A stretch of 64,000 nucleotides of DNA from Natranaerobius thermophilus JW/NM-WN-LF (GTDB lineage: Bacteria; Bacillota; Natranaerobiia; Natranaerobiales; Natranaerobiaceae): assembly GCF_000020005.1 (NCBI RefSeq), contig NC_010718.1, forward strand, positions 439,001 to 503,000, in the 5' to 3' direction. Positions 12,732 to 39,071 of this stretch are shown in pieces; the stretch's first letter is position 1; each line of letters begins with the position of its first letter. The translations under genes and the position numbers were made by a program. Under the pieces are notes generated by a model, which saw only the letters and a program-made list of their open reading frames with translations, was not told where the DNA came from and did not search any database.

Positions 12732-12890
12732 ATGCGTGATGACTGGTTCAATTCAATATTATCATAAGTTAATAAACAAACAAAAATACAACGTCTAAAA
12801 GTATCCTTGAAAAAATTTGCTGAACTTATTAAAATTTACTTTGGAATACACTCCCAAATTTCTGGCATGAGGCATAAAGGAGGGGGTTGT

Positions 12891-14156
12891 ATGACTAAAA
12901 TTCTAGCTTGTGGCAAAGTATTCACTGGAGAAACTAACAAGGTCTTTTCCAGGGGTGCAGTGGCTGTACAAGATAATGAGATTATAGATATAGATGTGGA
13001 CAGCCAAAATCCTGGAGAAGAACTAAAGAAAAAATACCCTGAGGCCGAATACTATGATCTGAGTGGGCATACTGTGTTACCGGGATTGATAGATAGTCAT
13101 ATTCATCTGGATTTACACGGGATGGCTGATACCTTTGATGAAAACTTCGTTGAGGACAAGTTAAGGTCGATTAGGGCCTCTAGAGCTATGGAGGACACCT
13201 TGTTTTCAGGTTTTACTACTGTGAGAAATTGTGGTTCAGTTAACTGGATAGATATCAGTGTAAAAGAAGCTGTTAGACGGGGAATAATTAACGGGCCCCG
13301 GATTTTAACCAGTGGTAAAATCTTATCTATTACCAGCCCAGGAAGTGAGTACTTTTACGGTTTATATCGGGAAGCCGATGGTTATGATGGTTTTAAGCTG
13401 GCTGCCAGAGAACAGCTAAAGATGGGTGCAGATTTACTAAAGTTAATGGCAACTGGAGCTATTATGAACCCTGGTGGGGTTCCAGGAGCTACTCAACCTG
13501 ACGAAAAAGAAATTAAAGCTATAGTTAGAGAAGCTAAAAAACTGAATAAAAAAGTAGCAGCTCATGCTCATGGTGCCGAAGGAATTAAAAACGCTGTTAG
13601 AGCAGGAGTTGACACCATAGAACATGGAACATTTGCCGATAATGAATCCCATGAATTAATGGTAGAATACGGTGTTTATTTAGTACCTACTCTTGCTCCC
13701 GATTACTTTATGAGTAAACATGGTAAAGAGGGTGGTGTAGCTTCATTCATAGTGGATAAATTGAAAAAGAAAAGGGAAGCACGACTAGAAGCTCTCGATA
13801 GAGCTATTGAAACTGGAGTTAAAATAGCTTGTGGCTCGGATGCGGGCACTCCATATAATTATCACGAAAACAATGCTCAAGAATTAAAAGTTCTTGTAAG
13901 TGAAGGGCTGCTGAGTCCCGGTGAGGCCATTAGAAGTGCCACTCAGTATTCCGCTGAAGCTTGTGGCTTATTAGACGAACTAGGTACTATCTCCCAGGAA
14001 AAGAAAGCAGATATTATAGCAGTTGACGGGGATCCAACTGAAAATATAGATGTATTAACAGATAAAGATAATATTAGATTTGTAATGAAAGATGGAGAGA
14101 TAGTCAAAGATCAACGAAGCGGAAAACACAGCAGCATTTCATCCCAGTCGGCATAA
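12891..14156 (+). CDS. Imidazolonepropionase-like amidohydrolase (prolidase-type)
   Basis: A 421-residue amidohydrolase-superfamily protein. The metal-ligand motifs are GLIDSHIHLDLHG (HxH near residue 65), LLKLMATGA with the bridging lysine, AAHAHGAEGIKNAV (His), TIEHGTF (His) and ACGSDAGTPY (Asp). This order is typical of the group annotated as imidazolonepropionase-like or Xaa-Pro/Xaa-Arg dipeptidase. ATG 12891 follows AAAGGAGGGGG by 7 nt; upstream in-frame codons are not needed. Its stop codon lies at the foot of the structured leader of the next gene, so transcription may continue into it. The substrate is unknown; a dipeptidase is a reasonable guess. Confidence 0.82.
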   Translation: MTKILACGKVFTGETNKVFSRGAVAVQDNEIIDIDVDSQNPGEELKKKYPEAEYYDLSGHTVLPGLIDSHIHLDLHGMADTFDENFVEDKLRSIRASRAMEDTLFSGFTTVRNCGSVNWIDISVKEAVRRGIINGPRILTSGKILSITSPGSEYFYGLYREADGYDGFKLAAREQLKMGADLLKLMATGAIMNPGGVPGATQPDEKEIKAIVREAKKLNKKVAAHAHGAEGIKNAVRAGVDTIEHGTFADNESHELMVEYGVYLVPTLAPDYFMSKHGKEGGVASFIVDKLKKKREARLEALDRAIETGVKIACGSDAGTPYNYHENNAQELKVLVSEGLLSPGEAIRSATQYSAEACGLLDELGTISQEKKADIIAVDGDPTENIDVLTDKDNIRFVMKDGEIVKDQRSGKHSSISSQSA

Positions 14157-14267
14157 TAATCGCTCCTTAGTATATAATTACCTTGAATAAGGTCAGGAAG
14201 GATAGCTTTAAAATCCTTTGAACTTGGCTCAACAAGGTGCCAGAAGATCCACTAAGGAGGTGATTAT
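14156..14267 (+). promoter_or_regulatory. Structured leader that buries the ribosome binding site of the ATP-grasp gene
   Basis: Bases 14156-14171 (ATAATCGCTCCTTAGT) pair with 14251-14267 (ACTAAGGAGGTGATTAT). This makes 6 + 9 Watson-Crick pairs around a one- or two-base irregularity and encloses the Shine-Dalgarno AAGGAGG (14254-14260), one base before the ATG. Inside the closing stem lie ACCTT/AAGGT (14180-14193), AAGGAT/ATCCTT (14198-14218) and a weaker TGGC/GCCA hairpin (14225-14242), giving a multi-branch shape. There is no T-run, so control would be at translation. I could not match it to a known riboswitch class. Confidence 0.5.
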
Positions 14268-15548
14268 ATGTCCAAGAAATTTAATGTTTTAATTCTATGT
14301 GGGGAGAAAGAAGTGCCAATTATACAAGAAAACATTAAGTATCTTGAAAACTACAATGTTGAAACAGAAACTTCAGACAAAATACTTCAAATGGGTACCC
14401 AAAAATATTTAGAAGAAATGATAGAACTGTTAAATCAGGAGCCTGAGAGATATCATGGAATTATAGGAACAAGGGATATGACAAGTGTATTTGCCAATGT
14501 AATTGCTGAAAAGACTGGTAAAATGTGTACTTCAGTTGAAAGTATGATTAACTGCCAGAACAAGTATATTTCTAGAAAACTACAGCAAAAATATGTCCCA
14601 GAGGCTACACCCAGATTTTGGTTGGATTCATACTTCTTAAAAGAATTCCCCATTAAACCACCCTATTTTGTCAAACCTGTTAGGGCTAATATGTCCTATT
14701 CCAGTAAAAAACTTAATTCTTATGATGATTTGAGAGAACTTATTAAGGACAGGACTCAAGAGCTCACTTCTTATAATAAATACTATTTAGATGCAATCCA
14801 TGTAGCTTCTCATTTAAAAAACCAGGAAAACTTAGATACTTGTAATAAGTTTATCTGTGAGGAGCTCATACCAGGTGAACAGGTGACTGTTAACGGATAT
14901 ATTTTTCAAGGGAAAGTCAAAATTTACGGTTTAGTTAAAGCGGCTTTTTGGGATGAGAAAATCAGTTTCAGCCATCATGAATATCCCTATGAACTACCGG
15001 AAGAACTAGATACAAAAGTAAAAAATGTAGTAGAACAAGCAGTAAAAGGACTTGGTTTGGATAATACATTCTTCAATGTAGAATTAAGAATTGATCAAGA
15101 TAAAAAACAGGTATATATTATTGAAGTTAATTCAAGAATGGCATTTCAATTTGCGAAAATGATTGAATCTGTAGAGGGAGTTAATTTAGTTAAGTCCCTT
15201 TGTGATCTCGCAGTAGGCAAACAACCTGATGAAGAACAAACAAATATTGAAAGAAGATACAAGTATTGTTTCAACTTTGAATTGAGAGAGTTTGCAGATA
15301 GAAATATAGTTAGAATTCCAATGGAAAGAAACTTGAAAGAGATAAATGAATTGTATCCCGAAGTAACAGTTAAGAATTTGGTTGATGCGAATAGCAAGTT
15401 ATCTGATTATAAACAAAACCTAGAAAGCTTTAGATACGCTATCATTGATGTCCCTGGTAATTCTAGAGATGAAATAATGGAAAAATACAGAGACATAAAA
15501 TCCAGATTAGGTTATGAATTCGATAGTGAACTTAAAGAAGCCAATTAA
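14268..15548 (+). CDS. ATP-grasp domain protein, probable carboxylate-amine ligase
   Basis: A 426-residue protein with an ATP-grasp core. After an N-terminal Rossmann-like region (FNVLILCGEKEVPIIQ...YHGIIGTRD) come CQNKYISRKLQQKYVPEATP, PPYFVKPVRANMSYSSKKL (ATP-binding Lys), CEELIPGEQVTVNGY and FNVELRIDQDKKQVYIIEVNSRMA, the acidic/Asn metal site. This matches ligases that join carboxylates to amino groups by acyl phosphates (BtrJ/D-Ala ligase/carbamoyl-phosphate-like families). The substrate is unknown. It follows a ribosome-binding-site-occluding leader and is closed by a terminator at 15556, so it is controlled as its own unit. The preceding amidohydrolase could act on related peptides. Confidence 0.78.
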   Translation: MSKKFNVLILCGEKEVPIIQENIKYLENYNVETETSDKILQMGTQKYLEEMIELLNQEPERYHGIIGTRDMTSVFANVIAEKTGKMCTSVESMINCQNKYISRKLQQKYVPEATPRFWLDSYFLKEFPIKPPYFVKPVRANMSYSSKKLNSYDDLRELIKDRTQELTSYNKYYLDAIHVASHLKNQENLDTCNKFICEELIPGEQVTVNGYIFQGKVKIYGLVKAAFWDEKISFSHHEYPYELPEELDTKVKNVVEQAVKGLGLDNTFFNVELRIDQDKKQVYIIEVNSRMAFQFAKMIESVEGVNLVKSLCDLAVGKQPDEEQTNIERRYKYCFNFELREFADRNIVRIPMERNLKEINELYPEVTVKNLVDANSKLSDYKQNLESFRYAIIDVPGNSRDEIMEKYRDIKSRLGYEFDSELKEAN

Positions 15549-15555
15549 TGAAATA

Positions 15556-15591
15556 AAACAGCACCTGCTTTTAGCAGGTGCTGTTTTTATC
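15556..15591 (+). terminator. Intrinsic terminator after the ATP-grasp gene
   Basis: Stem AACAGCACCTGC (15558-15569) pairs with GCAGGTGCTGTT (15574-15585), loop TTTT, followed by a T-run. Confidence 0.88.
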
Positions 15592-38828: not shown

Positions 38829-38884
38829 CTTTACAATTTTGACCGGAACTGTTATTATATTAATATACGAACTTAAACCGTAAA

Positions 38885-38955
38885 CTCTCGTATATTTTCG
38901 GGAATAAGGCCCGAAAGTTTCTACCTAATGACCGAGAATCATTTGGCTACGAGAG
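38885..38955 (+). promoter_or_regulatory. Guanine (purine-class) riboswitch aptamer
   Basis: P1 is CTCTCGTA (38885-38892) with TACGAGAG (38948-38955). P2 is TTCGGG/CCCGAA with loop AATAAGG. The conserved core GTTTCTACC is at 38917-38925. P3 is AATGA/TCATT around CCGAGAA. The ligand-pairing base in GGCTACGAG is C (38947), which selects guanine or hypoxanthine rather than adenine. It lies upstream of purK and immediately before a second aptamer. Confidence 0.9.
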
Positions 38956-39071
38956 AGAAAGGGTATCTAGGGTTCCGGGGGTGTCAAAACCAAACCTGAC
39001 CGGACCGAGTGGTACTCACCCATTAAGGGTACACCGAAGGGATAAAAGCCCAGGCGGGTAGGTTTCTCTCG
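38953..39071 (+). promoter_or_regulatory. ykkC subtype 2 riboswitch aptamer, probably PRPP-sensing
   Basis: The ykkC-class signature is clear: TCTAGGGTTCCG (38966-38977), GGACCGAGTGG (39002-39012), then ACACCGAAGGGATAAAAGCCC. A closing stem pairs GAGAGAAA (38953-38960) with TTTCTCTC (39063-39070). The class includes guanidine, ppGpp and PRPP binders. Position behind a guanine aptamer and ahead of de novo purine genes points to PRPP (known tandem guanine-PRPP arrangement). Its first bases overlap the guanine P1 strand. Confidence 0.88.

Follow-up and report, generated by a model that had tools for sequence, protein, structure and literature searches.

A predicted stem joining the stop codon of an amidohydrolase gene to the start site of an ATP-grasp gene in Natranaerobius thermophilus: a candidate translational-coupling element

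In ermC-type translation attenuators, which rely on a stalling leader peptide, the position of the ribosome picks between alternative pairings that sequester the Shine-Dalgarno (SD) sequence. For neighboring genes, the account of coupling given in a review describes the RNA-unfolding model, with the rpmI-rplT pair of E. coli and its gap of +52 nt, and reports several downstream genes that are shut by structure without being coupled (PMC12548453). In that account, the choice between unfolding and reinitiation is unsettled (PMC12548453). Termination-reinitiation coupling is reported to be nearly abolished by about 20 nt between genes (PMC10666635).

Our analysis concerns the leader between an amidohydrolase gene and the gene for an ATP-grasp ligase-like protein of N. 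thermophilus. Both lie in a window of 64,000 nt (NC_010718.1, positions 439,001 to 503,000) on the 3.17 Mb contig of a genome that has three contigs and 3.19 Mb in total. Based on its anatomy and on modelling, this leader most likely couples translation of the two genes by RNA unfolding, a reading to which we give about even confidence. Similar to rpmI-rplT, a predicted structure closes the downstream start until ribosomes of the upstream gene open it, and the gap fits both ribosomes (PMC12548453). Unlike rpmI-rplT, the gap between the amidohydrolase stop and the ATP-grasp ATG is 111 nt, the 5′ arm runs from the stop codon, a second arm competes for the same target and the genes are metabolic. 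That the gap exceeds the one in rpmI-rplT speaks against coupling. The limit of about 20 nt (PMC10666635) concerns reinitiation, a different mechanism; at 111 nt, only unfolding seems plausible. If true, this would be a clean long-gap case of RNA-unfolding coupling, with a stem from the stop codon and with reinitiation unlikely. Since the review's account treats the choice between the two mechanisms as unsettled (PMC12548453), a coupling pair of such layout could help to separate them. The leader also resembles SD-sequestering translational riboswitches in that its SD lies in a stem for which an alternative pairing is possible, but it differs from them in having no aptamer family, conserved core or relatives. 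Similar to ermC attenuators, ribosome position would select the SD-sequestering pairing in the proposed switch, although a full upstream gene would take the place of the stalling leader peptide.

The features of the locus are collected in Table 1. The amidohydrolase carries Pfam Amidohydro_1 (E 1.5e-54) and matches 3mtw, an L-Arg carboxypeptidase (E 5.4e-61), while its score against NCBIfam XaaProDiPepCaul (310 bits) is under the family cut-off of 500. The ATP-grasp gene product matches Pfam ATP-grasp_4 (E 3.4e-13) and PDB 3vot, an L-amino acid ligase (E 6.8e-05). A three-sequence alignment places its start codon at the same position as in a paralog and an ortholog, and its SD has a nine-base match to the ribosome. 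A shared transcript of both genes is probable. The promoter-like site upstream of the amidohydrolase is weak, because the scan gave 13 such sites where 10.6 were expected.

Table 1. Features of the amidohydrolase/ATP-grasp locus (positions within the window)
Feature	Position	Strand	Remarks
Promoter-like TTGAAA-17-TAAAAT	12807..12835	+	upstream of amidohydrolase; 10/12 matches
Amidohydrolase gene (Xaa-Pro/Arg carboxypeptidase-like)	12891..14156	+	upstream gene, ends TAA TAA
Arm 1, 5′ strand of closing stem (anti-SD arm)	14150..14171	+	22 nt, spans amidohydrolase stop codon; fold prediction
Amidohydrolase stop codon TAA	14154..14156	+	within 5′ arm; second in-frame TAA directly after
Arm 2, alternative anti-start arm	14172..14184	+	predicted to pair with 14257-14269; not noticed in first-pass annotation
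Inner fold (core), candidate aptamer in earlier reading	14179..14243	+	z -2.11; 16/500 shuffles as low
3′ strand of closing stem	14251..14272	+	22 nt, contains SD and ATG of ATP-grasp gene; fold prediction
SD AAGGAGG	14254..14260	+	for ATP-grasp gene
ATP-grasp ligase-like protein, 426 aa	14268..15548	+	downstream gene
Terminator-like hairpin	15555..15587	+	3′ of ATP-grasp gene; scan listed - strand; T run after stem on + strand

The first-pass annotation had proposed that the start of the leader pairs with the SD region and buries AAGGAGG, that this stem begins at the amidohydrolase stop codon and that no T-run is present. Folding confirmed the pairing and its position, and the predicted stem is longer than first thought, since it extends into the amidohydrolase coding sequence and beyond the ATG; a terminator scan of the leader likewise found no terminator-like site. 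The segment 14150-14275 has a minimum free energy (MFE) of -40.0 kcal/mol (z -4.29), and none of 200 shuffles was as low. Among 258 SD-bearing leaders from the window and 15 sampled stretches of the same genome, this leader has the lowest z (-5.70, 60 shuffles) and ranks 7th from the bottom in energy and 21st from the bottom in SD accessibility. In the folding models, the signal is carried by the outer stem and the core alone is ordinary: z was -1.56 for 14172-14250 (34/500 shuffles as low), -1.52 for 14179-14250 (44/500) and -0.13 for 14185-14250 (210/500). The two clear hairpins and the weaker one that had been described inside the stem are thus unremarkable against shuffles, and in the MFE structure the inner hairpins are merged in one long-range arm.

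The length of the stem was compared with chance in two ways. Gene pairs and SD-bearing leaders were taken from a crude gene finder (longest frames with little overlap, SD matches of 5 bases or more), and the counts of such pairs and leaders throughout depend on it. Stop-anchored stems scoring at least 34 occurred in 2 of 144 gene pairs, where swapping leaders between genes gave an expectation of 0.01. When the position was left free, 2 of 548 genes had a stem to the start region scoring at least 36, against expectations of 0.15 by shuffling and 0.45 by swapping leaders. The outer stem therefore exceeds chance at its stop-codon position, while a genome-wide search for free-position stems would return about one to two by chance, an extrapolation from these rates.

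RNA-unfolding coupling requires a structure over the downstream SD and start, which the predicted fold provides, and ribosomes that translate the upstream gene must be able to reach this structure. On a two-gene transcript, the stem would tie the end of the amidohydrolase frame to the ATP-grasp SD and start through 22 nt on either side, and the gene would be shut. A ribosome ending the amidohydrolase would cover the 5′ arm, its leading edge about 10 bases beyond the stop, and would break the closing stem. The AU-rich arm 2 would next compete for the same target, so that the SD core would be freed and the ATG held in a weaker helix; with arm 2 competing for the start region, the opening would be only partial. 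The finishing ribosome was modelled by barring from pairing all bases upstream of the stop codon and the first ten after it. At 37 C, freeing the SD-to-ATG region was predicted to cost 19.9 kcal/mol, and 9.9 kcal/mol with the ribosome in this position; at 53 C, the growth optimum given for N. thermophilus (PMC2764116), the two costs were 14.9 and 6.0 kcal/mol. This relief of 10.0 kcal/mol ranked second among 302 co-directional gene pairs with gaps of 60-250 nt (median 0.0, 99th percentile 6.8), and second again at 53 C (8.9 kcal/mol). As the blocked edge was shifted, the cost was 20.3 kcal/mol up to 14135, 9-10 at 14158-14171, and about 6 once arm 2 was covered too. In the model, then, a finishing ribosome lifts most but not all of the lock on the ATP-grasp start. 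The first-pass annotation had offered a coupling device as its second reading, and this reading fits both the anatomy, with a 5′ arm that spans the stop codon, and the modelled relief there; what stands is a prediction. On this reading, ribosomes would open the stem and thereby couple the ATP-grasp gene to amidohydrolase translation in the cell.

Arm 2 complicates this picture. The segments 14172-14183 and 14258-14269 form a 12-nt inverted repeat with 92% complementarity, and in folds with arm 1 blocked or left out, 14172-14184 is predicted to capture 14257-14269. Since arms 1 and 2 target the same bases, they are mutually exclusive. In the arm 2 pairing, the first SD bases are unpaired with probabilities of 0.85-1.0 once the block reaches 14165, and the start codon lies mostly in the new helix. 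With arm 2 held unpaired and the ribosome in place, the predicted opening cost was 5.6 kcal/mol; arm 2 thus works against coupling, because with it the cost stays at 9-10 kcal/mol at 37 C. By itself arm 2 is unstriking, with a score of about 24.5 (calculated by hand); by the shuffles, about 29 of 548 genes, or about 1 in 20, should have a stem of at least 24. It may be a brake or a mere coincidence.

Stems of this layout were sought elsewhere in the genome. In the first sample, which includes the ATP-grasp leader, stop-to-SD stems scoring at least 30 were present in 3 of 144 pairs. The scoring rule was then fixed and applied to 40 fresh stretches, where none of 158 pairs held a stem scoring at least 28 (0.21 expected). 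The stop-anchored layout is rare and, given this hold-out result, the stop-to-SD stem is no general device of the genome. The best example in the first sample precedes a pullulanase-like gene, so named from reading its sequence (L029 14561-14676, G000:C2:900001-920000). Its 17-bp stem pairs GTTATACCTTCAAAGTT with AACTTTGGAGGTATAAC, from near the upstream stop to the SD, and begins 3 nt past the first TAA of the tandem TAATAA ending a membrane-protein gene. Its arms are unrelated in sequence to those of the ATP-grasp leader, the modelled ribosome relief is 6.1 kcal/mol, and the shared layout may be coincidental.

The ATP-grasp protein has few close relatives (E<=1e-30). Among 398 genomes of the phylum, they were found only in the same genome (a paralog with 61% identity) and in a genome of the same order (G002, 59%); a genome of the same family (G001) had none. 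A set of 61 genomes gave weak partial-length matches in 7 others. No distant relatives were confirmed in genome_contigs, whether searched with the single sequence or the three-sequence alignment, and none were found in viral_contigs. With so few relatives, the leader alignment is limited to three rows. The ATP-grasp gene of G002 likewise follows an amidohydrolase gene (64% identical), a shared order that agrees with coupling. Its leader of about 89 nt has no stem (z -0.01; 94/200 shuffles as low) and carries TTGACT-17-TAAAAT right behind the stop codon, so the gene pair can do without the stem. The paralog leader has a z of -4.10, which comes partly from a terminator-like hairpin further up, and a promoter-like TTTACT-17-TAAAAT. 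Both leaders, of which only the ortholog's has the same gene order, are unrelated to the one in the window. A stem is also predicted near the start of the paralog (L002 2762-2862), with its 5′ arm over the first hexamer of the promoter-like site. Apart from this, the amidohydrolase in the window ends in a tail of about 12 residues not present in its G002 ortholog, so the two genomes differ in the gene end beside the stem.

These leaders bear on the explanations that compete with coupling. It is conceivable, though unlikely, that the stem silences read-through: a short mRNA made from a promoter inside the leader would be free of the 5′ arms and translated, and the long upstream transcript would be kept shut. 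The ortholog and paralog sites would suit such an arrangement, since both have TG before the second hexamer, and in the paralog the stem's own 5′ arm overlaps the first hexamer (judged by eye) and would therefore be absent from that promoter's transcript; a fold of the ATP-grasp leader starting at 14185 also leaves the SD partly open. However, whereas the ortholog and paralog leaders have one promoter-like site each, the scan found no plus-strand site with at least 9/12 matches in the ATP-grasp leader, a difference that also counts for coupling, and by eye no first hexamer goes with the TATAAT at 14173-14178. Promoter scans are in any case weak evidence, because one or two sites per region are close to the shuffle means (0.6 and 1.0). 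The other main rival, likewise unlikely, is that the stem has no function and is a neutral long inverted repeat from chance or drift. The free-position counts given above would allow for such a repeat, and the stem is not conserved, either in the ortholog leader or in model searches of the same genome, G001, G002 and the 398 genomes. Against this stand the expectation of 0.01 per 144 pairs for stop-anchored stems of such length, and the consideration that the stem would hardly be neutral, because it would keep shut a gene with so good an SD match to the ribosome. That the stem is an RNA thermometer opening near the growth temperature is very unlikely. The stem does sequester the SD and the host is probably a thermophile, but in the model the SD stays paired from 37 to 70 C and the start codon loosens only at 80 C; with no opening of the SD within the growth range, this explanation was rejected.

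As its first reading, the first-pass annotation had offered a possible new translational riboswitch. In such a switch, ligand binding to the core would decide how far arm 1 or arm 2 prevails. The presence of two anti-start arms that exclude each other, an alternative fold that shapes the core as a junction with two hairpins, and a buried SD with no terminator would agree with such a switch. Its core structure is near chance against shuffles, however, which argues against a folded aptamer, if weakly, because real aptamers can be thermodynamically plain. The annotation could not match the core to the purine, SAM, TPP, glycine, THF, ykkC or SRP consensus, and Rfam gave no match for the leader at the gathering score or at E<=10. 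A covariance model built from this leader alone (R1) found only itself, once, in the same genome, nothing in G001 or G002, and nothing but itself across the 398 genomes, where the stricter filters for large sets applied. The comparison of homologous leaders, named beforehand as the test against this reading, gave no conserved fold, with one ortholog (z -0.01, unrelated in sequence) and one paralog to compare. A riboswitch is therefore very improbable, and the leader should not be filed as one; in prediction it behaves like the coupling class and, if that reading is true, the list of candidate riboswitches also becomes shorter by one. Quite doubtful, but a little less so, is a tandem-arm latch with two positions, in which finishing ribosomes, or else ligand binding in the core, would choose whether 14150-14171 or 14172-14184 lies on the ATP-grasp start, giving a closed or half-open state of a putative dipeptide-ligase gene beside a dipeptidase-like gene.

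Literature searches found no description of the ATP-grasp leader, a statement that covers those searches and not the print record at large. Several smaller candidates were tried and set aside. A leader peptide was rejected, as the leader has no ATG and, by eye, a single TTG frame of 12 codons with no SD. Neither a repeat family nor a mobile element is supported, with only three short chance-like matches of 18-32 nt besides itself in the same genome. A 13-nt imperfect direct repeat (14107-14119/14244-14256) hinted at an insertion and was rejected, since 12 of 100 shuffles were as good.

Other RNA elements were seen along the way. Two leaders in the sampled stretches (L026 5977 and L028 6442, both on the plus strand) have a terminator-like hairpin whose 3′ arm is the SD (GAGGTGAT, then a T run and the start codon), and neither has an Rfam match at the gathering score. 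The window itself holds a purine riboswitch at 38868-38969 (81.7 bits, Rfam), and the sampled stretches of the same genome hold a glmS ribozyme and c-di-AMP and cobalamin riboswitches (L026 3764-3942, 14346-14507; L059 12479-12711).
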